The notes under the pieces: generated by a model | The model's database searches: none | Told to the model about the DNA's origin: nothing | The model's input: only the letters and a program-made list of their open reading frames with translations | Position numbers and translations under genes: made by a program | NCBI RefSeq assembly: GCF_000517105.1 | Contig: NZ_KI912148.1 | Span: 1-64,000 of the forward strand | DNA: 64,000 bases | Origin: Fischerella sp. PCC 9605 | Lineage (GTDB): Bacteria; Cyanobacteriota; Cyanobacteriia; Cyanobacteriales; Nostocaceae | Direction: 5' to 3' | In this document: one piece after another, positions 50,284 through 60,780 of the stretch | Layout: each line of letters starts with the position of its first letter | How positions within the stretch are numbered: position 1 is the stretch's first letter

Positions 50284-50871
50284 TCAATTCATGTATGGCA
50301 ACTTTGCCGCTGTTGCCCGAATTTGGTCAGCGTGAGCTACTAATTGACCGCAAGCATCCCATGTACCGGAAATAAACATATTTTTGGCTCCTTCGCTCAT
50401 TGAAATAGGAGCAGAAAAGTCACCACTTTGCACCTGCATTGTTTCCAAGTTCACTGTCATAGGTGCTTGGGGATTAGCAGCTAGAAGGTCTTGCAGTTGT
50501 TTAACAGTGGCAGCATCAGCAGTAACGCAGGGAATACCCATCGCTACACAATTACCGAAAAAGATTTCCGCGAAGCTTTCGCCCACCAGCGCTTGAATAC
50601 CCCATTTAGCGATCGCTTGGGGTGCGTGTTCTCGTGAGGAACCACAGCCAAAGTTGCGGTTGACGACCAAAATTTTTGCGCCTTGATACTGCGGTTGATC
50701 AAAGGGATGTTGTCCTTTGAGTGCAGCGCGATCGTCAGCAAACGCGTGTGCGCCTAAGCCATCAAAGGTGACACAGCGCAAAAAACGGGCAGGAATAATG
50801 CGGTCAGTATCAATGTCATTGCCCACTAAAGGAATACCGCGTCCGGAAACTGCTTTAACTTCACTTGCCAT
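50284..50871 (-). CDS. leuD: 3-isopropylmalate dehydratase small subunit
   Basis: With LeuC it isomerises 2- to 3-isopropylmalate in leucine synthesis. The 195 residues start [25 protein letters not shown]. Characteristic are [13 protein letters not shown] (about 19-31) and [12 protein letters not shown], the substrate-binding loop (near residues 74-85). It lies 164 bp after leuC on the same strand with a dispersed repeat in the gap. Complete. Confidence 0.96.
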
Positions 50872-50934
50872 AAGACTTTTGGATTGAGGAGTAGGGGAAA
50901 AATGTCAGTTGTGTCAAGCTTTGTGTCTTTGTAC

Positions 50935-50976
50935 GCCAGTCGCTACAACGGGGGGAACCCCCAAGGGCGCGCTGGC
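50935..50976. repeat. GCCAGTCGCTACAACGG...GCGCTGGC element between leuC and leuD
   Basis: A short element with GCCAG/CTGGC ends and a GGGGGGAACCCCC inside. A related copy with the same left end is inside the decarboxylase gene (27776-27861). ACCACCAAGGCACCAAGACAC repeats lie next to it (about 51009-51030). Confidence 0.75.
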
Positions 50977-51035
50977 TCGTCTTTGTGTTTCAAAAATATG
51001 TTTTATTAACCACCAAGGCACCAAGACACTAAGAA

Positions 51036-52442
51036 TTAATTCAACAACTCACGCACGTCAAATACTTCGCCTTTCACCGCCGCTGCTGCAACCATCGCGG
51101 GACTCATCAGCAAAGTGCGGCCGGAGGCTGAACCTTGTCTACCTTTAAAGTTACGGTTGGAGGAAGAGGCGCTGATCTGTTGTCCCTGAAGTTTATCAGG
51201 GTTCATGGCCAGGCACATCGAACATCCGGGTTCGCGCCACTCAAATCCTGCTTCCGTGAAGATTTTATCTAGTCCTTCTGCTTCAGCTTGCTGTTTCACC
51301 CGTTCGGAACCAGGGACTACGAAGGCTTTGATTCCTGCGGCAACGTGCCGTCCCTTGGCAACTTTGGCGGCTTCTCGCAAATCGCTGATTCGTCCGTTGG
51401 TGCAGCTGCCAATAAAGCAGACATCGACTTTGGTGCCTTGGATGGGTTGACCGGGAGCAAGACCCATATAATTGTAAGCTTCTTCAGCTATTTGGCGGTC
51501 ATCTTGGGGTAGTTGTTGGGGAGAGGGTACGGACTGGTCAATTCCGATACCTTGACCGGGAGTTATACCCCAAGTGACGGTAGGAGGAATGTCAGCAGCA
51601 TCGAAAACTACTACATCATCGTACTCGGCGTCGGCATCACTCTTGATGGACTCCCACCAAGCAACTGCTTTGTCCCAATCTGCACCTTTGGGGGCAAAGT
51701 CTCTACCCTTGAGGTATTCGTAGGTGACTTGATCGGGGTTGATATAGCCGCAACGTGCACCGCCTTCGATCGCCATATTGCAGACTGTCATCCGTTCTTC
51801 CATGCTCATTTGTGCAAAGGTGGTACCTGCAAATTCGTAGGCGTATCCGACACCACCTTTCACACCGAGGGTACGAATAATATGGAGGATGACATCTTTG
51901 GCGTAGACTCCTGGTTTGAGAGTGCCGTTGACTTCGATTTTGCGGACTTTGAGTTTAGACAGGGCCAGGGTTTGGGAAGCGAGAACGTCGCGGACTTGGC
52001 TAGTACCAATACCAAAAGCGATCGCCCCAAAGGCACCGTGGGTTGAAGTATGGCTATCTCCACAGGCGATCGTCATTCCAGGTTGGGTGAGTCCTTGTTC
52101 TGGCGCAATCACATGCACAATCCCCTGATTTCCAGAACCAATATTGTAGAAGGTAATGCCATTTTCTTGACAATTCTGCTCTAGCGCCTGCATCATTTCT
52201 TCTGCCAGAGTATCAGCAAAAGGACGTGCTTGATTTGTTGTTGGTACGATATGGTCTACCGTAGCGACTGTCCGCTCTGGAAACAATACTTTCAAACCCC
52301 GCTCCCTCAGCATAGCAAAGGCTTGGGGACTGGTAACTTCATGGATCAGGTGTAGTCCAATTAATAGTTGCGTTTGTCCTGAAGGAAGTTTACCAACAGT
52401 GTGTAAGTCCCAAACTTTATCAAATAGTGTACCTTTGCTCAT
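51036..52442 (-). CDS. leuC: 3-isopropylmalate dehydratase large subunit
   Basis: Aconitase-type large subunit that carries the 4Fe-4S cluster. Start ATG 52442 ([19 protein letters not shown], 468 residues); the frame is open to 52469. Cluster cysteines lie in IGSCTNGR and in [12 protein letters not shown]; also seen are [15 protein letters not shown] and the closing [12 protein letters not shown]. The length matches the bacterial type 1 enzyme. First gene of leuC-leuD. Confidence 0.97.
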
Positions 52443-52469
52443 ACTTGAATTTGTTTTAAGCTGTCGCAT

Positions 52470-52991: not shown

Positions 52992-54233
52992 ATGGCGAAA
53001 AGTTGGGAGTGCGATGGTGTGCCAAAAGATGGAAAATCCTACCCCCATCAAAATCCTCCAGGAAAGCACGATCCCTATGAAAATTTTGGGGCAGACTGTG
53101 TAATTTGTGGCTTACCGAAGGAGGCTATGATTGGTGATAAAAGTAAACCTCCGGTAAAAGCGATCGCAGCGGCGATAACTGGTGTTCTAACTTTGGCTGT
53201 TATTAGTGGTTATCAGATTTGGCAGTCTCAATCTTGCCGTGGAAATAAACAAAAAATTAATGGCATCTGTATAGCAGTTGATTCCACTGTTGCTATTTCT
53301 TCTACTTTATCTGCTTCTACTTCTGCTCCTACATCATCTCCAAGTGCTGCAATCTCTCCTGCTGCTCCCGTAAATACATATCCTACCTTGAAAGTAGCGA
53401 ATGTTCCTACGGTAATATTTAGATACGGAGGCTCTACAAGCTTTGCACCGTTAAGGAATCCGGCGATAGTAGAGCGAATTAATCAAGCACATCCGGGGTA
53501 TCAATTGGTTTATACCGAACCGCCATCAGGAAATAAGCCTGGTTCTGGTATCGGCATCAAAATGCTGATAGACGGTCAACTGAGTTTTTCCCAATCTTCT
53601 CGACCTGTAAAAGATGCCAAGTACAAAGCAGCAAAAGAGCGGAATTTCCAGTTGGAACAAATACCTGTTGCCATTGATGGAATTGCTATTTACATCAATC
53701 CTCAAATATCTATCTCTGGTTTGACAGTATCCCAAATTAGAGACATCTTTACTGGAAAAATCACTAATTGGAAACAAGTGAGTGGTTCCGATCTTGCAAT
53801 TACCGTTATCAGTCGCGATCCTCAAGATGGGGGTACTCCTGAATATTTTCAAGAAACAGTCTTAGGAAAAGCTGATTTTGCTTCGTCTGCAAAACCATAC
53901 GTGAGAGACACTACAAGTGGTATCAAAAAGGTGGCTACAACTCCTGGGGGAATTGGTTACGCTACTGCTTCAGAAGTTTGCAATCAAAGTTTAGTAAAAA
54001 CTCTCCCAATCGGGAGAGAAATTAATAAAGGTTTTATTACTCCTTGTAACGGAAAGGAAGTAAATAAAGCTGTTTTTGCCAAAGACACTTACCCGATAAC
54101 CAGGCGGTTGTTTGTGATAGTTAAACGAGATGGCAAATTAGATGAACAGTCTGGTGTTGCTTATGCCAATATGCTGTTGAGTGACGAAGGTCAACAAATA
54201 GTAAATCAAGCTGGCTTGGTTCCTCTGCGCTAA
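52992..54233 (+). CDS. Membrane-anchored PstS-like substrate-binding protein
   Basis: A 413-residue protein with an unusual layout. The cytoplasmic N-terminus holds cysteines (Cys7 and CVICG near 36-40, possibly a metal knuckle). One TM helix follows (about 56-76), then a Ser/Thr/Ala/Pro linker (about 92-125), then a periplasmic phosphate-binding-protein fold: FRYGGSTSFAPLRNPAI, DGQLSFSQSSRP, IPVAIDGIAIYINP, LTVSQIRDIFTGKITNWKQV and SRDPQDGGTPEYF. Canonical PstS has a cleaved signal, not an anchor, and no pst permease is here. It heads a three-gene cassette with vWA and tubulin-like proteins, which suggests a sensing or structural role rather than uptake. Confidence 0.85.
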   Translation: MAKSWECDGVPKDGKSYPHQNPPGKHDPYENFGADCVICGLPKEAMIGDKSKPPVKAIAAAITGVLTLAVISGYQIWQSQSCRGNKQKINGICIAVDSTVAISSTLSASTSAPTSSPSAAISPAAPVNTYPTLKVANVPTVIFRYGGSTSFAPLRNPAIVERINQAHPGYQLVYTEPPSGNKPGSGIGIKMLIDGQLSFSQSSRPVKDAKYKAAKERNFQLEQIPVAIDGIAIYINPQISISGLTVSQIRDIFTGKITNWKQVSGSDLAITVISRDPQDGGTPEYFQETVLGKADFASSAKPYVRDTTSGIKKVATTPGGIGYATASEVCNQSLVKTLPIGREINKGFITPCNGKEVNKAVFAKDTYPITRRLFVIVKRDGKLDEQSGVAYANMLLSDEGQQIVNQAGLVPLR

Positions 54234-54261
54234 CAAAATCTACATTTAAAATTCCACATCC

Positions 54262-55155
54262 ATGAGTAGATTTCGTCGTAGTTTGTGGCTGTACCCTTTG
54301 TTCCAAATTCCGTTGATATTCTTTGTTATTTGTTTAGTTGCGGCAGCTTTGTGTGGGTTTTTAAGACTGGGTAAACCTGATGTGGCGGTGGCGATCGCCT
54401 TAGATTTAAGCCAAAGTACTTACCAAGGGCAGCCATTCAACGCACCCAACACGTTTATGGCTCAAGAAGTAGCAGCAGTGCAAGCATACCTAGAACTTAA
54501 TTCACAACAATTAAGTTCTCCCAATCAGATTCAGATTTTTGGCTCTGCCGATCAAGTTGTACCTCTAACTAATTCCTTTTCTAGCGATAAACAAAAGTTA
54601 GAATCCCAGCTAAATCAAGCTTTAGCGAATCCTATCTTGCCCTTACAAGTTGGTGAAGGAACTAATGTTGATAAAGCTATTGAGGAAAGTACAAAAGTCC
54701 TCAGCAGTATTCAAAATCACTGTCGTGAATTATTAATCGTTACTGATGGAATTGCTGAGGTGTCAGAAACTGTTATTAGTCAAGCTGTAAGTAAAGATGT
54801 AAAAATTAATTCTTTAGTAGTAGGTGCAGATGCCTCTACACTCAAGTTAGCTGCTAGCATCACACAGGGGATTTACGTATCGGGTTTGTATAATATTCAA
54901 GAACTATTTACAAACATTTTTTTTGATAGTTTTAACAGTAACCAAAGATGGGTTAATTTCTGGCGAGGTTGTGCCTGGATTGCTTTTATGTGGTTGCTAA
55001 CTTTACCTCTAGATAAATTAATTCTTCAGGGATTGTTCAATTTGCCAATGAATTTGAGCGGACAGTTAGCAATAGGCAATGCTTTATTTTGGACTGTGGT
55101 GACACCTCTAATTATGTGGAGAGTATGGGGTTTACCATTTTTATCGTCATGTTAA
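54262..55155 (+). CDS. Membrane vWA-domain protein
   Basis: A 297-residue protein: TM helix (about 12-36), von Willebrand A domain (about 40-215) with MIDAS motif DLSQS (residues 49-53), a TNVDKAIEES loop supplying the Thr and IVTDGIAE, then two further TM helices (about 232-256 and 268-288). The ATG lies 28 bp after the binding-protein stop, so the genes are co-transcribed. vWA proteins with a MIDAS mediate metal-dependent protein contacts. Comparative genomics has linked vWA proteins with a tubulin/FtsZ-like family as a proposed membrane-remodelling system, which fits the next gene. Confidence 0.86.
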   Translation: MSRFRRSLWLYPLFQIPLIFFVICLVAAALCGFLRLGKPDVAVAIALDLSQSTYQGQPFNAPNTFMAQEVAAVQAYLELNSQQLSSPNQIQIFGSADQVVPLTNSFSSDKQKLESQLNQALANPILPLQVGEGTNVDKAIEESTKVLSSIQNHCRELLIVTDGIAEVSETVISQAVSKDVKINSLVVGADASTLKLAASITQGIYVSGLYNIQELFTNIFFDSFNSNQRWVNFWRGCAWIAFMWLLTLPLDKLILQGLFNLPMNLSGQLAIGNALFWTVVTPLIMWRVWGLPFLSSC

Positions 55156-55177
55156 AAAAAGGTGAATTAAAAAATAA

Positions 55178-55220
55178 TTTTTTTGTAGAGGCGCAATTAA
55201 TTGTGACTCTATTAATGTTT
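55178..55220. repeat. Degenerate palindrome between the vWA and tubulin-like genes
   Basis: TTGTAGAGGCGCAATTAATTGTGACTCTA is a decayed copy of the TGTAGAGACG palindrome family. It lies in the 123-bp gap and could form a weak hairpin in the cassette mRNA. Confidence 0.5.
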
Positions 55221-55278
55221 AGTCACTAAATTAAAATAATAGTTAAAAAGTTAACCTACTTATAATTAGGAGAAAATC

Positions 55279-58200
55279 ATGTCAGCATTAGAAGAAAAAA
55301 GTATGGTTCCCACTGTATTTGTGGGTGTGGGTGGGACGGGAGTAGAAGTATTGTCGCGGGTGCGGCGATTAGTAGAAGAAACTTATGGTAGTTTAAAAAA
55401 TTTTCCGATAATTAGTTTTGTAAGTATAGATACAGATAAAGATTACAAAGTTAGCAATCCAGAGGCGGCGGGTTCGCCTTTACAAGACCATGAAAAACAT
55501 TGGGCAAGTGTCAGTGGTAGAGAAGTACAAGACATTTTGTCTAATATGGAAAATTATCCTTGGATTGAGTCTTGGTTTCCCAGAGAATTAGAGCGCAATA
55601 TTGGTGCATTAGAAGCAGGTGCAGGTCAAATTCGTGCCTGCGGTCGCTTCGCCTTTTTTTATAATTACCACAAGATCAAAGCCAGATTTCATGAGGCGTG
55701 CGATCGTGTCAAAGGTCACGATCATATTATGCTGGATAAATACGGCATTAGAGTTCAAAGTAGTGGTTTAAATGTTTTTGTCGCCGCCTCTATTTCTGGT
55801 GGTACTGGTAGCGGTATGTTGATTGACCTCGGTTACTGTATTCGTAACTGGCTCAAAGGACAAGGGAGTCCTTTAATTACAGCAATTGTACCGATGCCTA
55901 ATGCTTTTGCCAATATTAATGTAGGCGATCGCGTTCTTGCCAATGGCTACGCTGCGTTGATGGAATTAAGCTATTTTTCTGACCATAGAACTGAGTATGT
56001 AACTCAATTTAGTTCTGGTTTAGTGGATGAAGTTAAGAGCAAACTTCCACCTTTTGATTTTACTTATTTAGTTGGAACAAAGAATGGCGAAAGTGAGTTT
56101 AATATTGAGCAACTGCGAGAAATGATCGCTCAAAATATTTTCTTAGATTTAACTTCTGACTTTGCACCGCATAAACGTTCAATTCGAGATAATATTAAAG
56201 GTTCGTGGGCACAAGCAGACCCAGGTGGAAGGGGCTATCCCAAAAATTTTATGAGCTTTGGTCTGGCAACAATTGAAATTCCTATAGCTCAGATTCGTGC
56301 TTCTTTATCTAGTCGCTTGGGTATGGATTTAATTAATTGGTGGTTAAATGAATCCGTACCTCTACCAGCAAACGTTTTAGATTTGGTACAAGGCGATATT
56401 CTTAAACGCCTGCGATTAACAGAAGCCGAATTGTTGACAGACATTGCTGCGGCACAAGATAAATCTTATATATCAGAAATTTCTGCCTGGGTTAATACTA
56501 TCCGCAATGAAATCGCTACAGATAATAAACTGCAATGTACCCATCAAGGTGTAAATGTGATTGGAGCAGAGCGTGGTAAAATTTTGGAGTTTGACAAATA
56601 TCTGACTTCTAAAGTTGATGAATATCGCGTCAATCACTTGCGGGAATTAAGCCCTGATGAGCGCACCCACGGCGATTTTCTCCAAAAAATGTATGACAAC
56701 CGCAATCGCATTATTCAACAAAGCAGAAAAGCTATAGAGACGGAATTTTATAAAATAATTAGCGATCGCAACCAGGGGCCAAAATTTGCCGATGCTTTTC
56801 TGACCACAGTGCGTCAATTATTTGCCAATACAACTGAAAAATTTCGCCGAGAGTCGGAAAAAACTTGGCAACCCAACGAAATTAATCGTCAGCGACAGTA
56901 TGAAGCAGCGCTGCAAGATATCATCCAATTTAAAAACTTGTTTGGTTTAACAAAACAAGCTCAAATGGAAAAGTATTGTGAGGATGCACTCACAGGTTTA
57001 GAAGCGAGCTTCATTGCTTTTATTCAACGTAAAAGCCGTACTTTAGCTCTAGAAGTAATTGCCCGGATGCAGGAACATTTAGATATAATGGAACGGCGAC
57101 TGGCGCGGTTTAATCAAAAGTTGAAACAATTGCGTGACGATTTTAAACAAAAAGCCGATCGCGAAGCTGACAGTGCTGATGCTCTCAAAATTAACGGGTT
57201 TAAACTTTATAACCGAGAAGAACTCAATCTGCTTTATCAAGATATGATTGAACAGTTAGCGGGAGCTTCTGAAGGTAGCCAGAGCTTGTATGAACTTGGA
57301 CTAAATCAAATTTGCTCAACAATGGCGGAAGATGTGTTGAGAGATATCAGTCCCCTGTGGAAACAAACCCGCGCCGCAGGTGAAGTTATGCAACTATTCG
57401 ACATCACTCAGTTGCATAACGTCCATGATGAGGACTTCAAAGCAACCATAGCCCAAAAAACTCAAATAGTTATCGAAAATTCTCCCCAACAAAGTCGATT
57501 GAAACAGGACTTAGCAGCGTGCGATCGCCTTTTAAAAACTTTACAAAATGATCCAGAAGCAATTCGTAGCAACATTCGTATCGCTCATCAAAAATCCCAA
57601 CCTCTAATACCACTTTCCCAAGCGGTTCTCTCAGGTGCTGATGCTGGATTTACCCCCGCCATCAATACTAAAGTCGCCGTAGTTGGTGGTCGCAACAGCA
57701 GCGATCCGGCTGTCATCAAACTAATACCCTATTTACAAGAACGGGTAGGAAACGCTGACTCTATCACCCCTCTAGGACAACAAGAACGACATCGGATCGT
57801 TTTTGTCCAAGAAAAAGGCGGTTTTTCCTTGCGTTGTATTGATGGTATGCGCAAACTACGCCAATCCTACCAAGACTGGAAAGGAAAGTCGATTGAAGCA
57901 AAAAGGGCGCGTCTTAAGGGTGAAAGTAAAGACCCTCCCATCCCCGTCCACATACAAAAAGAACCTCCTTTTTGGGATGTGTTTCCCGAAAATCCACAAG
58001 TGTTTAAACTGGTAGTGCAAGCAAGAGCCTTTGAAGTATTGCGGCTAGAGGAAAACCGCAACACCAAAGAAAAGGTGATTCGCTACACTCGCCAAACTAA
58101 AATTGGGTCAGAAAATGTAGAAATAGCTTCTAGTTGGGAAGAAGTGGTACAAGTACTAGAAGTGTTAGCATGTCGCCCCGATCAAGAAGAAATTCGCCGT

Positions 58201-58584
58201 CAGGTGATGGAAAAACTGCAAAGCGCCGACCAATTACAGAACAAGCAAAACTTGTATAACCAACTAATCACCTATTTAGAATGGCGAGAAGCAGAACTAG
58301 AGGAATTTGGCGGAAGCGATCGCCCAGAATACAAACGTGAAGCAGCAATTATTGAGGATGTCATCACTGCTTATAAACTACATGATGACAAAGTTATAGA
58401 GCCACCAGAAATACCCAAGCAACCTAAAGTTACTGACCTGCCAATTACACCCAACCCATCAGAAGAAACTCTCTCTGATTCTGTTTTTTGTACCCAATGC
58501 GGTGAGCAAAACCCCACTAAGTCTAATTTTTGCTTCAACTGTGGTGCTCAGTTGGTGAAACGTCGAACATCCTTTAATAACTGA
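55279..58584 (+). CDS. Large tubulin/FtsZ-superfamily protein with C-terminal zinc ribbon
   Basis: A 1101-residue protein; AGGAG precedes the ATG. The N-terminal 400 residues are tubulin-like: nucleotide-binding FVGVGGTGVEVLSRV (about 14-28), SFVSIDTDKDY, the GALEAGAGQIRACGR loop and the tubulin signature SISGGTGSGML (about 174-184). Long helical, partly coiled-coil regions follow (about 400-780), then a mixed domain and a C-terminal zinc ribbon, CTQCGEQNP...CFNCGAQL (about 1073-1094). It belongs to the large tubulin-like group (Tubulin_2 type) rather than FtsZ. Third gene of the cassette. GTP binding and polymer formation are inferred. Confidence 0.87.
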   Translation: MSALEEKSMVPTVFVGVGGTGVEVLSRVRRLVEETYGSLKNFPIISFVSIDTDKDYKVSNPEAAGSPLQDHEKHWASVSGREVQDILSNMENYPWIESWFPRELERNIGALEAGAGQIRACGRFAFFYNYHKIKARFHEACDRVKGHDHIMLDKYGIRVQSSGLNVFVAASISGGTGSGMLIDLGYCIRNWLKGQGSPLITAIVPMPNAFANINVGDRVLANGYAALMELSYFSDHRTEYVTQFSSGLVDEVKSKLPPFDFTYLVGTKNGESEFNIEQLREMIAQNIFLDLTSDFAPHKRSIRDNIKGSWAQADPGGRGYPKNFMSFGLATIEIPIAQIRASLSSRLGMDLINWWLNESVPLPANVLDLVQGDILKRLRLTEAELLTDIAAAQDKSYISEISAWVNTIRNEIATDNKLQCTHQGVNVIGAERGKILEFDKYLTSKVDEYRVNHLRELSPDERTHGDFLQKMYDNRNRIIQQSRKAIETEFYKIISDRNQGPKFADAFLTTVRQLFANTTEKFRRESEKTWQPNEINRQRQYEAALQDIIQFKNLFGLTKQAQMEKYCEDALTGLEASFIAFIQRKSRTLALEVIARMQEHLDIMERRLARFNQKLKQLRDDFKQKADREADSADALKINGFKLYNREELNLLYQDMIEQLAGASEGSQSLYELGLNQICSTMAEDVLRDISPLWKQTRAAGEVMQLFDITQLHNVHDEDFKATIAQKTQIVIENSPQQSRLKQDLAACDRLLKTLQNDPEAIRSNIRIAHQKSQPLIPLSQAVLSGADAGFTPAINTKVAVVGGRNSSDPAVIKLIPYLQERVGNADSITPLGQQERHRIVFVQEKGGFSLRCIDGMRKLRQSYQDWKGKSIEAKRARLKGESKDPPIPVHIQKEPPFWDVFPENPQVFKLVVQARAFEVLRLEENRNTKEKVIRYTRQTKIGSENVEIASSWEEVVQVLEVLACRPDQEEIRRQVMEKLQSADQLQNKQNLYNQLITYLEWREAELEEFGGSDRPEYKREAAIIEDVITAYKLHDDKVIEPPEIPKQPKVTDLPITPNPSEETLSDSVFCTQCGEQNPTKSNFCFNCGAQLVKRRTSFNN

Positions 58585-58871: not shown

Positions 58872-58892
58872 ATGTGCGAGGAGGTAATTCCT

Positions 58893-59561
58893 ATGCAAAT
58901 AGTCCAGGGATCAACAGAGTTAGAATATGCCTTTCTGTTTACTCTTAGAAAGGTAAATTCCATAACTACAGGAGGTTTTAAACCATTTTTTGATAATTTA
59001 CCTGTTGACCCTTACATTAAAGGCAACTATCGCTTAAGAAGATTATCGCGTTTTATAGTTTCTGGAGATAAATTAATCAAACTACCTCATGGTTATCTCT
59101 TTCAAAGTAAAGATTACAATCCCTTAGTGGGTGATATCAAAAGAGAGTTTACAGAATTAGAAGATGCACTCATAGAACTGGACATATTTAAAAATCTAGT
59201 TTTAGCATTTAGCGATTCCTGTAAACTGCACCCAGAAGCGGAAATAGGAGTGCATCAAATCAGAACTACTTGTACGCCGGATAATTTTGGCAACCCAGCA
59301 CCTGAAGGTATACATAGAGATGGTACTGATTTTATCGGTATCTTCTCAGTTGATAGAGACAATATTCAAGGTGGAGAAACACATTTATATACTGCCAAAA
59401 AAGAAAAGCCTGTTTTCAATAAAATTCTGAATCCGGGAGAACTACTATTAATCAACGACCATAAATTCTTCCACTATACTACTCCTATTAAACCGATCGG
59501 TGATGGTATAGGTACAAGAGATGTATTTGTGCTGACTTCTCCAAGTTTGCTTTCAGATTAG
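58893..59561 (+). CDS. 2OG-Fe dioxygenase family protein
   Basis: A 222-residue protein; start ATG 58893 (MQIVQGSTELEYAFLF) with GAGGAGG ten bases before. The segment EGIHRDGTDFIGIFSVDRDN carries the iron ligands His and Asp, QGGETHLY follows, and NDHKFFHYTTPI supplies the distal His, as in the 2OG-Fe_Oxy_2 group that includes amino-acid hydroxylases such as isoleucine dioxygenases. The substrate is not known; free amino acids are the best guess. Convergent with the DUF711 gene. Confidence 0.82.
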   Translation: MQIVQGSTELEYAFLFTLRKVNSITTGGFKPFFDNLPVDPYIKGNYRLRRLSRFIVSGDKLIKLPHGYLFQSKDYNPLVGDIKREFTELEDALIELDIFKNLVLAFSDSCKLHPEAEIGVHQIRTTCTPDNFGNPAPEGIHRDGTDFIGIFSVDRDNIQGGETHLYTAKKEKPVFNKILNPGELLLINDHKFFHYTTPIKPIGDGIGTRDVFVLTSPSLLSD

Positions 59562-59628: not shown

Positions 59629-60780
59629 TCAATTCACAGCAAATATTTGACAATCTACAAGATATGGGGAATTGAAAGCTGTCATTTCCCCAGCTTTCTT
59701 ACCCGGAATTGGAAACAATCTTGCTGATAGGGGTTTATCTAGCTTGATGGCTAGAGTTGCCATATCAATTAATATGGCTGCAATCTTTTCTATTGTGATA
59801 TCACCCTGAATAGGCACTGTATCAAGTCCACAACCACAAACTGCTGAATACAATAATAAGTTAGTAATATCATAAGTCTGTTCGTTAGCTCTTGCTGCTA
59901 AACCAATATCTTCGCAAACAGGAAGCATTAAACCAGAATAACCACATACTTTGACTGGTACATTTTTCAAAACACGAGTCAGCATACCAGAAATTGTCAG
60001 TGTTCCTAGATACCCAAACTTGCCACTCATGAGTTTTTCGTAAGCAAAAGCAATACTTTGTTTTTGATCCAAAGGTGATGTCAGTGATGTGTCAATGCCA
60101 TTGTATGTAATCGCAAATTTTGCAGATATTGTTTCAGCTATATCTGCTACTTGTTTTAATTCTTCTGCCAAGAGGATTCGGAGATTTTCTTCTGCTGCTT
60201 GAATATCATGGTTAGCTAGAGAAAAGGCTTTCATTACCAACTCACTGCACTCTACACCAATCGCAAAAGATGTATTGCCTTTATGATATGCAGTCGGGAA
60301 AAATGGTATACCTGGCTGGCAATTTGCCCAAGCACAAAAGCGAAAGTTACCATAACCATTTTCAGTTTCTTGGGAAATGCGTTTAATCACTTTTGCAGAT
60401 TCCCAAGCGGTTTCAAAGTTTATGCCAGTTTCTCTATCTCCAATCTTACTGGAAGAATAAATTACTGAAGTATTTTTGTTAATATCTGGGATGATTGCTA
60501 TAGTTTTCGCTTGGCTGGCATAACCAATATTGAAAAAACTGACATTAAGTTCGCGACAAAGTGGATCTAGAATTTGAATTTCACTCACTATTTCGGGTGT
60601 AGACAAGCCTTGCAAATATTCTTCCCAAGGGTTAGTAGCAATTCTGGTTGTTTGAACTTCGTATCCGTATTGCTCAAAAAAATCCTTTGCTTCCTGATTA
60701 AAATTAGCAGCTTGTTTAATTTTCTCTTTTTCTCTAGGAGTTTGCAGTGATATACCTGTTGTAATGGTTCTAATTTTCAT
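59629..60780 (-). CDS. DUF711 (UPF0210-like) family protein
   Basis: A 383-residue protein beginning MKIRTITTGISLQTP. Glycine-rich segments GYASQAKTIAIIPDINKN, AWANCQPGIPFFPTAYHKGN, GVECSELVMKAF and AVCGCGLDTVPIQGDIT are typical of DUF711/UPF0210 proteins, whose fold is related to glycyl-radical-like barrels but without a known activity. The several conserved Cys and the CGCGLDT loop near the end may form the active site. Alone on its strand. Confidence 0.8.
   Translation of the reverse strand: MKIRTITTGISLQTPREKEKIKQAANFNQEAKDFFEQYGYEVQTTRIATNPWEEYLQGLSTPEIVSEIQILDPLCRELNVSFFNIGYASQAKTIAIIPDINKNTSVIYSSSKIGDRETGINFETAWESAKVIKRISQETENGYGNFRFCAWANCQPGIPFFPTAYHKGNTSFAIGVECSELVMKAFSLANHDIQAAEENLRILLAEELKQVADIAETISAKFAITYNGIDTSLTSPLDQKQSIAFAYEKLMSGKFGYLGTLTISGMLTRVLKNVPVKVCGYSGLMLPVCEDIGLAARANEQTYDITNLLLYSAVCGCGLDTVPIQGDITIEKIAAILIDMATLAIKLDKPLSARLFPIPGKKAGEMTAFNSPYLVDCQIFAVN

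Follow-up and report, generated by a model that had tools for sequence, protein, structure and literature searches.

Operons that pair an FtsZ-like 1 (FtsZl1) protein with a von Willebrand factor A (vWA) protein were proposed in 2010 by Makarova and Koonin, and as described in the accessible portions of their paper they share with the locus considered here a Tubulin_2-family protein, a coiled coil, and a linked vWA protein, mostly with an intact metal ion-dependent adhesion site (MIDAS) (PMC2875224). In the same portions, a reviewer draws attention to binding proteins beside FtsZl1, including one of the branched-chain amino acid type in Arthrospira, and to a PilA-like neighbor in Thermosynechococcus; the authors left the binding-protein neighbors out of account because they occur in few genomes (PMC2875224). 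The present analysis concerns a three-gene cassette of this kind in Fischerella sp. PCC 9605, located in a stretch of 64,000 nucleotides (contig NZ_KI912148.1, positions 1 to 64,000), hereafter called the window. The cassette encodes a membrane-anchored receptor with a predicted cytoplasmic Cys/His head and a PstS-like binding domain, a membrane vWA protein, and a giant tubulin-superfamily protein. The FtsZl1/vWA pairing is already known; what is new is the receptor with its constant head, which, in contrast to the picture in the accessible text of the 2010 paper, is a near-obligate partner of one cyanobacterial clade of these tubulins. At the level of sequence, the data document the gene order, the co-retention of the components, a constant head combined with a variable sensor, and intact GTP-binding and MIDAS motifs.

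Two further systems are close to this one. The GAP1-N2 systems of Kaur et al. (2020) also place a tubulin with a coiled coil beside transmembrane proteins whose vWA domain is extracellular, the side predicted for it here, but, according to the available part of that report, their tubulin versions belong to firmicutes and actinobacteria and are accompanied by genes for a DO-GTPase and GAP1 (PMC7159879). The cassette considered here has another receptor. No GTPase family was found among the 7 flanking window proteins scanned, a scan in which no GAP1 model was searched by name. In Synechocystis PCC 6803, the gene cluster of Sll0445–Sll0447 likewise contains a cyanobacterial Tubulin_2 protein and is tied to pilus proteins and phototaxis, but in the accessible text its neighbors are annotated with FtsA and DivIC domains instead of a receptor and a vWA protein (PMC9880817). 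The preliminary description of the locus called such systems uncharacterized in cyanobacteria, which is nearly right: the exception is sll0445, whose disruption is reported in the accessible text to give a phenotype, and this is the one experimental study on FtsZ-like 1 members that we found (PMC9880817). A 2023 study of FtsZ/tubulin evolution left Tubulin_2 out of its main trees, as far as its available text goes (PMC9871819). The accessible literature, which mostly did not include subscription papers, yielded no earlier account of the head, of the insertion discussed below, or of a receptor that is a constant partner.

The three genes of the window lie on the same strand with gaps of 28 and 123 bp, as originally described (Table 1), and no plus-strand terminator is present in either gap. 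A survey of gene neighborhoods, which the preliminary description had proposed, finds the same genes linked elsewhere. In a linkage set of 88 head proteins recovered from 82 genomes, the vWA gene follows the head gene on the same strand in 58 cases (29 genera), and the full order head–vWA–tubulin is present in 46 (24 genera). The set is thus beyond chance, because the same genes recur in the same order in 24 genera.

The co-retention of the components was evaluated in a sample of 388 genomes of the order, using a head profile (9 rows), PF13809, and a profile of the window's vWA family. At most 15 head candidates were scored per genome in this sample, at most 20 in the 292-genome draw described below, and at most 6 for the vWA family, and the counts are lower bounds. 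The head is found in at least 84 of the 388 genomes, Tubulin_2 in at least 192, and the vWA family in at least 68. Tubulin_2 is present in 81 of the 84 head genomes versus 111 of the 304 genomes without a head (nominal P 1e-25, the genomes being related and the counts not phylogenetically corrected). At a threshold of E 1e-3, the head is found in 63 of the 68 vWA genomes, and scoring all candidates in the remaining 5 reveals a weak head (E 2e-4 to 9e-3) immediately before the vWA gene in 4. Genome G366, absent from the first head count, also yields a head at E 2e-4 once all candidates are scored.

A sharper association is obtained when the tubulins are divided by phylogeny. The tree of 117 cyanobacterial Tubulin_2 proteins contains a clade B of 72 members, which includes the window protein, and a clade A of 36 members; one or more of three other partner genes lie within 6 kb of each of the 36. 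In a 292-genome draw from the phylum, with loci selected by Tubulin_2 alone, the head is present at E 1e-5 in all 20 genomes with a clade-B tubulin (14 genera) and in at least 1 of the 272 others; the sole exception found is G056, whose tubulin belongs to clade A. Of the 20 clade-B genomes, 8 are represented in the first head profile and 11 in the larger one used here; the 9 that are not represented (5 from genus g26 and 4 from family f24) all have the head. Family f24, which belongs to another order and which we take to be Thermosynechococcaceae, keeps the head, vWA, and tubulin genes at three separate loci in 4 of 4 genomes, and named Thermosynechococcus records bear the window's vWA family.

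The receptor conforms to the earlier account of an anchored PstS-like protein with a Cys-bearing cytoplasmic head, the side of the head being a prediction. A single hydrophobic segment is present, and because a Lys directly precedes it, the N-terminus is predicted to be inside by the positive-inside rule. The head of the window protein contains Cys 7, 36, and 39 together with His 26. In 68 aligned heads (numbering from residue 2), W4, C6, G8, H25, C35, and C38 are invariant and an Asn is near-invariant, while in the full set W-x-C-x-G is found in 88 of 88 heads, the His in 87, and C-x2-4-C in 87. This residue pattern suggests a Cys3–His metal site, predicted to be zinc-finger-like, and the metal bound is probably Zn. 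The head may resemble RanBP2/NZF fingers, whose pattern is W-x-C...N...C-x2-C. The AlphaFold2 model of the head is ordered, with a predicted local distance difference test score (pLDDT) of about 90 over residues 1–40 (segment from residue 2). Assignment to a known zinc-finger family was considered but set aside for want of a convincing match: in Pfam, the 68 members gave zf-P11 at E 0.0095 in 1 case and Vps36-NZF-N at best at 0.067 in 6, the best match among PDB sequences has E 0.81, and Foldseek returned no match for the head model. No second head protein is detected in the window's genome at E 1.

The outer part of the window receptor is a PBP_like_2 domain (E 7e-34), and in the PDB its sequence matches phosphate-binding proteins (best E 3e-22). 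Judged by its sequence score, the protein is PstS-like and not a canonical PstS, because TIGR02136 is reached with 151.7 bits against a curated cut-off of 206.6; the corresponding values for TIGR00975 are 40.8 and 205. A phosphate role, for which the earlier account proposed a check on the operon, is not supported, given that a PstS-like ectodomain is present in only 5 of the 88 heads and that the PstS score lies below the cut-off. A Pho-box-like pattern is no better represented upstream of four PstS-type cassettes than in shuffled sequence, and phosphate regulation was rejected for lack of a Pho-box excess in these four regions. Three PstS genes over the cut-off are located elsewhere in the same genome, and no Pst permease or ATPase gene is found among the 7 flanking window proteins scanned. 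Phosphate sensing is thus unsupported.

While the head is constant, the sensor attached to it is exchanged. By profile, the outer domains of the 88 heads comprise 74 of type I, 5 PstS-like, 1 PhnD-like with a nuclease, and 8 others. Those type I domains that were scanned are Peripla_BP_6, in some cases accompanied by TPR matches. The 8 others are three with PsbP_2 matches (one above the cut-off), three that look coiled by eye, and two short ones. In a sister tubulin clade of 3 proteins, the corresponding membrane protein combines an ordinary zinc ribbon (by eye) with a PstS-like domain; it is linked in G064 (PF12849) and unlinked in G085 and G241 (by eye). A single clade of the four PstS-type cassettes is rejected by the tubulin tree (approximately unbiased test, p 3e-56, log-likelihood difference 289). 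The vWA partners of these four, by contrast, form one group (support 83, not starred), and the vWA sequences weakly reject the tubulin grouping (p 0.047). These tests used 27 chosen loci and quick models without mixture, and the clades were named after earlier trees had been seen. Transfer of whole cassettes as the sole cause of the sensor changes is disfavored by the conflict between the vWA and tubulin trees. The simplest reading of these sequences would be that the sensor and the vWA protein, both predicted outside, move together relative to the tubulin inside.

Some individual loci illustrate the range of outer parts. At L053:12246-14102, the head and a PhnD-like domain are fused to a staphylococcal-nuclease-like domain, and the gene for this protein converges with that for a clade-B tubulin. 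Heads of this type also occur on PsbP-like outer domains at L178:7587-8411, L208:7734-8447, and L211:2496-3311 (one above the Pfam cut-off, two below), in genes located near the cassette or away from it. In the genome with L075:6650-14537 and L186:6935-9004, two tandem clade-B tubulin genes stand behind one vWA gene, and a few kb away, on the other strand, two heads with coiled-looking outer parts are encoded.

The second protein contains a vWA domain (E 7e-8) with an intact MIDAS, as first described. Of 65 homologues, 59 keep the MIDAS Asp, 57 and 58 keep its two Ser, 44 have the later Thr (14 have Asp there), and 58 have the later Asp; most exceptions are gaps, found in incomplete proteins or in those with no vWA domain. 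The three transmembrane helices claimed for this protein are borne out in part: hydropathy gives two clear helices in the window copy (16–34 and 237–255), while a third (about 268–290), to which the alignment points, is probable but falls under the hydropathy threshold. A basic N-terminus precedes the first helix, and the vWA domain is therefore predicted to be outside. The domain is absent from five homologues, three of them in one genus, and since these keep the membrane scaffold it appears from the sequences to be dispensable.

The third protein is, as the preliminary description stated, a tubulin-superfamily protein with a GGTGSG motif and a zinc ribbon. It matches PF13809 with 384 bits in the search of its own genome and 381 bits by hmmscan (E 7e-114, cut-off 27), and it shows the traits of FtsZ-like 1: an N-terminal GTPase domain with the T4 loop, an extended coiled coil after which comes a largely helical C-terminal part, and a linked vWA protein with MIDAS. 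It is the single Tubulin_2 protein of its genome, which encodes one canonical FtsZ elsewhere. The degeneracy of the GTP-binding loop that would have spoken against the earlier account is not seen. The T4 loop is invariant in 59 aligned sequences and is found in 70 of the 72 clade-B tubulins, the other two being incomplete reading frames. In the T1 loop, G16, G18, G19, and G21 are invariant in the same 59 sequences, and the pattern is present in 69 of 72 clade-B proteins, the exceptions being two incomplete frames and one G-to-E change. The GGTGSG of the window protein is preceded by a Ser, where the published FtsZ-like 1 motif has a third Gly.

The structure model of the protein (mean pLDDT 87.9, predicted template modeling score 0.73) consists of helices over residues 434–772, mixed alpha/beta segments at 794–880 and 922–950, and helices up to 1031. 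The closest structural match is archaeal CetZ. Foldseek ranks CetZ2 first (E 9e-6, template modeling score 0.49 by target length, root-mean-square deviation 8.9), and VIA-align superimposes 311 of the 342 residues of the CetZ chain 3zid_B (Z 24.6, root-mean-square deviation 3.9), i.e., nearly the whole chain, over model residues 9–883; VIA-align covered the chains ranked by Foldseek, and other folds may fit as well. The identity in the CetZ alignments is 12–17 percent, and CetZ chains of 330–342 residues leave no room for a long insertion or tail. Since a chain of about 340 residues aligns up to model residue 883, the aligned part includes the segment at about 794–880. Judging from these alignment ranges, the coiled coil is probably an insertion after which the tubulin C-terminal domain follows, and the model thus predicts that the tubulin fold is complete but interrupted by a long insertion of helices. 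In the accessible text of the 2010 paper, by comparison, T6–H7 is given as not identifiable and no similarity was detected for the C-terminal domain (PMC2875224). The near-invariant R303, D304, N305, and D314, located before strand 324–333, lie in what we tentatively take from the model to be the region expected for the T7 catalytic acids, an assignment that does not reach residue level for T6–H7–T7. The predicted complete fold with its inserted coiled coil bears, in silico, on the published doubt over the filament-forming domains.

On the basis of these results, we propose that the cassette is a three-component cyanobacterial signaling or scaffold system, in which an exchangeable receptor controls a GTP-dependent tubulin-family scaffold at the membrane. 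We give this reading even odds (a probability of about 0.5). The receptor would expose a swappable extracytoplasmic ligand-binding domain, cross the membrane once, and present a dedicated zinc-finger-like head inside. Ligand occupancy would be read jointly with the vWA protein, which may act as a metal-dependent docking switch outside, carried on a transmembrane scaffold. The head and the vWA scaffold would then change their hold on the cytoplasmic tubulin-superfamily GTPase, and the GTP-dependent assembly of the tubulin-like protein at the membrane would be switched on or off. The path from outside through the vWA protein to a cytoskeletal element, suggested in the preliminary description, fits the co-retention, the sensor swaps, and the predicted topology; the topology itself, the physical contacts, the direction of the signal, and filament formation are parts that we infer. 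The cassette is real, conserved, and more orderly than the first reading saw, and its mechanism, while unproven, is testable: a near-obligate receptor with a constant head and swappable sensors turns the guess of membrane remodeling into a testable signaling circuit with clear interaction targets.

Several observations weigh against this proposal. Of the 88 heads, 30 are linked to neither a vWA nor a tubulin gene (28 of these are in genomes with Tubulin_2), and 12 of the 30 are near-identical and belong to genus g26, so that per-genome counts overstate independence. In G478 (89 percent complete), no head was found, and the vWA and tubulin genes lie on a 5.5-kb contig. Three genomes (G409, G593, and G578) have heads and no Tubulin_2 was found in them, and in three more (G056, G428, and G312) the only Tubulin_2 found is of clade A. 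No match to the vWA profile was obtained in 21 head genomes, including all 12 of g26 and G233, with up to 6 candidates scored per genome. The tail of the tubulin is also variable: of 68 clade-B proteins of full length, 48 show the pattern of a zinc ribbon. Because it varies, the tail cannot be an obligate head-binding element; the ribbon as obligate partner of the head was rejected, as relatives pair GYF_2 or SHOCT-like tails with the same head type.

As an alternative, the cassette may be a membrane-remodeling or vesicle machine, in which the inner membrane would be shaped by the tubulin-like protein, while the vWA and binding proteins would serve for docking at the surface instead of forming a signal path. 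This is the published proposal from gene context, as given in the accessible text (PMC2875224), and it accommodates a predicted tubulin-fold GTPase adjoining membrane proteins. However, it gives no reason for a first gene whose product exchanges its outer ligand-binding domain while keeping a constant head, and by eye no recurring remodeling gene is present among the listed neighbor clusters. We therefore consider it unlikely, although it is the strongest competitor of the receptor-controlled scaffold.

Less likely still is a conflict or defense module akin to the GTPase-centric tubulin/vWA systems, in which the tubulin would respond to a sensed perturbation by assembling into an effector superstructure. 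The available part of the report on those systems describes tubulin–coiled-coil proteins beside transmembrane vWA proteins with the vWA domain outside, and a membrane-anchored periplasmic binding protein in another system (PMC7159879); the patchy spread of the head and vWA families within the order (at least 84 and at least 68 of the 388 genomes) would also be in line with such a role. Yet none of the three proteins has a PADLOC match at E 0.1, no GTPase or recognized effector is found among the 7 flanking window proteins scanned, and the genes are kept dispersed in genomes of 2.5–3.3 Mb, unlike a mobile island. That the binding protein is a nutrient-uptake accessory feeding an ATP-binding cassette (ABC) transporter, with the other two genes separate in role, is very improbable, because, while PstS-like and branched-chain-type outer domains are transporter components as a rule and an Ftr1-like permease gene (by motif and eye) precedes the head gene by 79–231 bp in 18 genomes of one family, the protein is membrane-anchored with a conserved cytoplasmic head that is co-retained with a tubulin clade, no ABC permease or ATPase is found among the 7 flanking window proteins scanned, and the same genome has its three over-cut-off PstS genes elsewhere.

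As to what the proposed receptor-controlled scaffold would act on, the leading guess is the control of type IV pilus motility or taxis, because of the gene context in family f24 and the report on the sll0445 mutant; this is the most speculative step of the proposal, and we regard it as doubtful. In G089 and G179, the clade-B tubulin gene begins 92–135 bp after a CheA gene. The G179 operon reads, by Pfam, response regulator–CheY–CheW–methyl-accepting chemotaxis protein–CheA; in G089, Pfam was applied to CheA only, three other genes are assigned by same-size homologues, and no CheY is present among the open reading frames called. A type IV pilin-like gene (Pilin_GH) follows the tubulin gene by 55–76 bp in G089, G179, and G247. 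The loci are L033:2586-12775 and L032:6506-16736, which stand after a chemotaxis-type operon and before a pilin-like gene, and L035:6652-10531, with the pilin-like gene only. According to the accessible text on Synechocystis, the Tubulin_2 protein Sll0445 is found in complexes with pilus assembly proteins and photosystem complexes, and disruption of sll0445 impairs phototaxis and alters photosystem II electron transport (PMC9880817). The tie to the photosystems counts against a pilus output, as does the restriction of the pilus context to one family, in which G280 has neither a CheA nor a pilin-like neighbor; moreover, Sll0445 may not belong to clade B. Five genomes of a genus that may be Synechocystis gave no tubulin match, a result from which we draw no conclusion. 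A still broader possibility, which we put forward tentatively, is a general bacterial receptor-to-cytoskeleton pathway, where a family of single-pass receptors with a shared, hitherto undescribed zinc-finger head and interchangeable sensors would, together with a vWA switch, directly gate a tubulin-superfamily polymer for surface behavior such as pilus motility. If true, it would be somewhat like the integrin-type receptors coupled to the cytoskeleton in animals.

Table 1. Coordinates of the cassette genes and their features in the window
Feature	Position	Strand	Basis or remark
Receptor gene (413 aa): cytoplasmic Cys/His head, one transmembrane helix, PstS-like periplasmic binding domain	52992..54233	+	PF12849, hydropathy, head kept in 88 proteins
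Predicted cytoplasmic head, residues 1-46: W-x-C-x-G ... H ... N ... C-x2-C	52992..53129	+	Alignment of 68 heads, model pLDDT
Transmembrane helix, residues 55-73	53154..53210	+	Hydropathy 1.88 over 19 residues
PstS-like type II periplasmic binding domain, residues 139-399	53406..54188	+	PF12849; PDB sequence matches
Membrane vWA protein gene (297 aa): transmembrane helix, vWA domain predicted outside, one clear and one probable further helix, conserved PLD motif, C-terminal Cys	54262..55155	+	PF13519, alignment, hydropathy
MIDAS motif DLSQS, residues 48-52	54403..54417	+	Window copy also has the later T and D
Giant tubulin-superfamily protein gene, FtsZ-like 1 / Tubulin_2 family (1101 aa)	55279..58584	+	PF13809 E 7e-114, structure model
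GTP-binding T1 loop GVGGTG, residues 16-21	55324..55341	+	Alignment of 59, pattern in clade B
GTP-binding T4 loop GGTGSG, residues 174-179	55798..55815	+	Alignment of 59, pattern in clade B
Long helical/coiled-coil insertion inside tubulin fold, about residues 434-772	56578..57594	+	Model secondary structure; alignments span 9-10 to 869-904
Probable tubulin C-terminal domain after insertion, about residues 794-880	57658..57918	+	CetZ alignment, inferred from ranges
C-terminal zinc ribbon, residues 1070-1092	58486..58554	+	PF13240; GYF_2 or SHOCT-like tails replace ribbon in some relatives

Tubulin_2 genes outside clade B are found in cassettes of other composition. In the clade-A cassette (L051:7591-14818, with 35 further clade-A tubulins), the tubulin is accompanied by a gene that looks vWA-like by eye but matches nothing in Pfam at E 0.01. 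At L051, the only locus on which this was tested, two more proteins are encoded: one is MotA/ZorA-like (PADLOC ZorA1, E 1e-15) and has a long coiled tail, the other is ZorB-like (E 2e-9). It is possible that this cassette is a tubulin-coupled ion-driven motor; in the literature searched, as far as it was accessible, no description of ZorA/ZorB linked to a tubulin was found. A divergent Tubulin_2 cassette (L090:6917-14625 and L091–L093) encodes a 610-residue vWA protein, a 915-residue tubulin, and a protein of about 1030 residues with no Pfam match at E 0.01.

The neighborhoods of the cassette have some recurrent members. The Ftr1-like gene mentioned above is on the same strand as the head gene at L036, L158, L163, L165, L182, L183, and the 12 g26 loci, and it is preceded by a gene for a 144-residue ferritin-like protein (by eye). 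A cluster of Ser/Thr-kinase-like genes (by eye), often divergent from the cassette, is present at L069:7897-10221 and in the neighborhoods of 25 further genomes; such kinases are common in cyanobacteria, and this proximity may be meaningless. The flanks of the window cassette are ordinary, with a 2OG-Fe dioxygenase gene (58872-59561, plus strand) and a DUF711 gene (59629-60780, minus strand) downstream. Upstream, on the opposite strand, the large and small parts of an aconitase-family protein are encoded by separate genes beside the cassette (50284-52469, minus strand).

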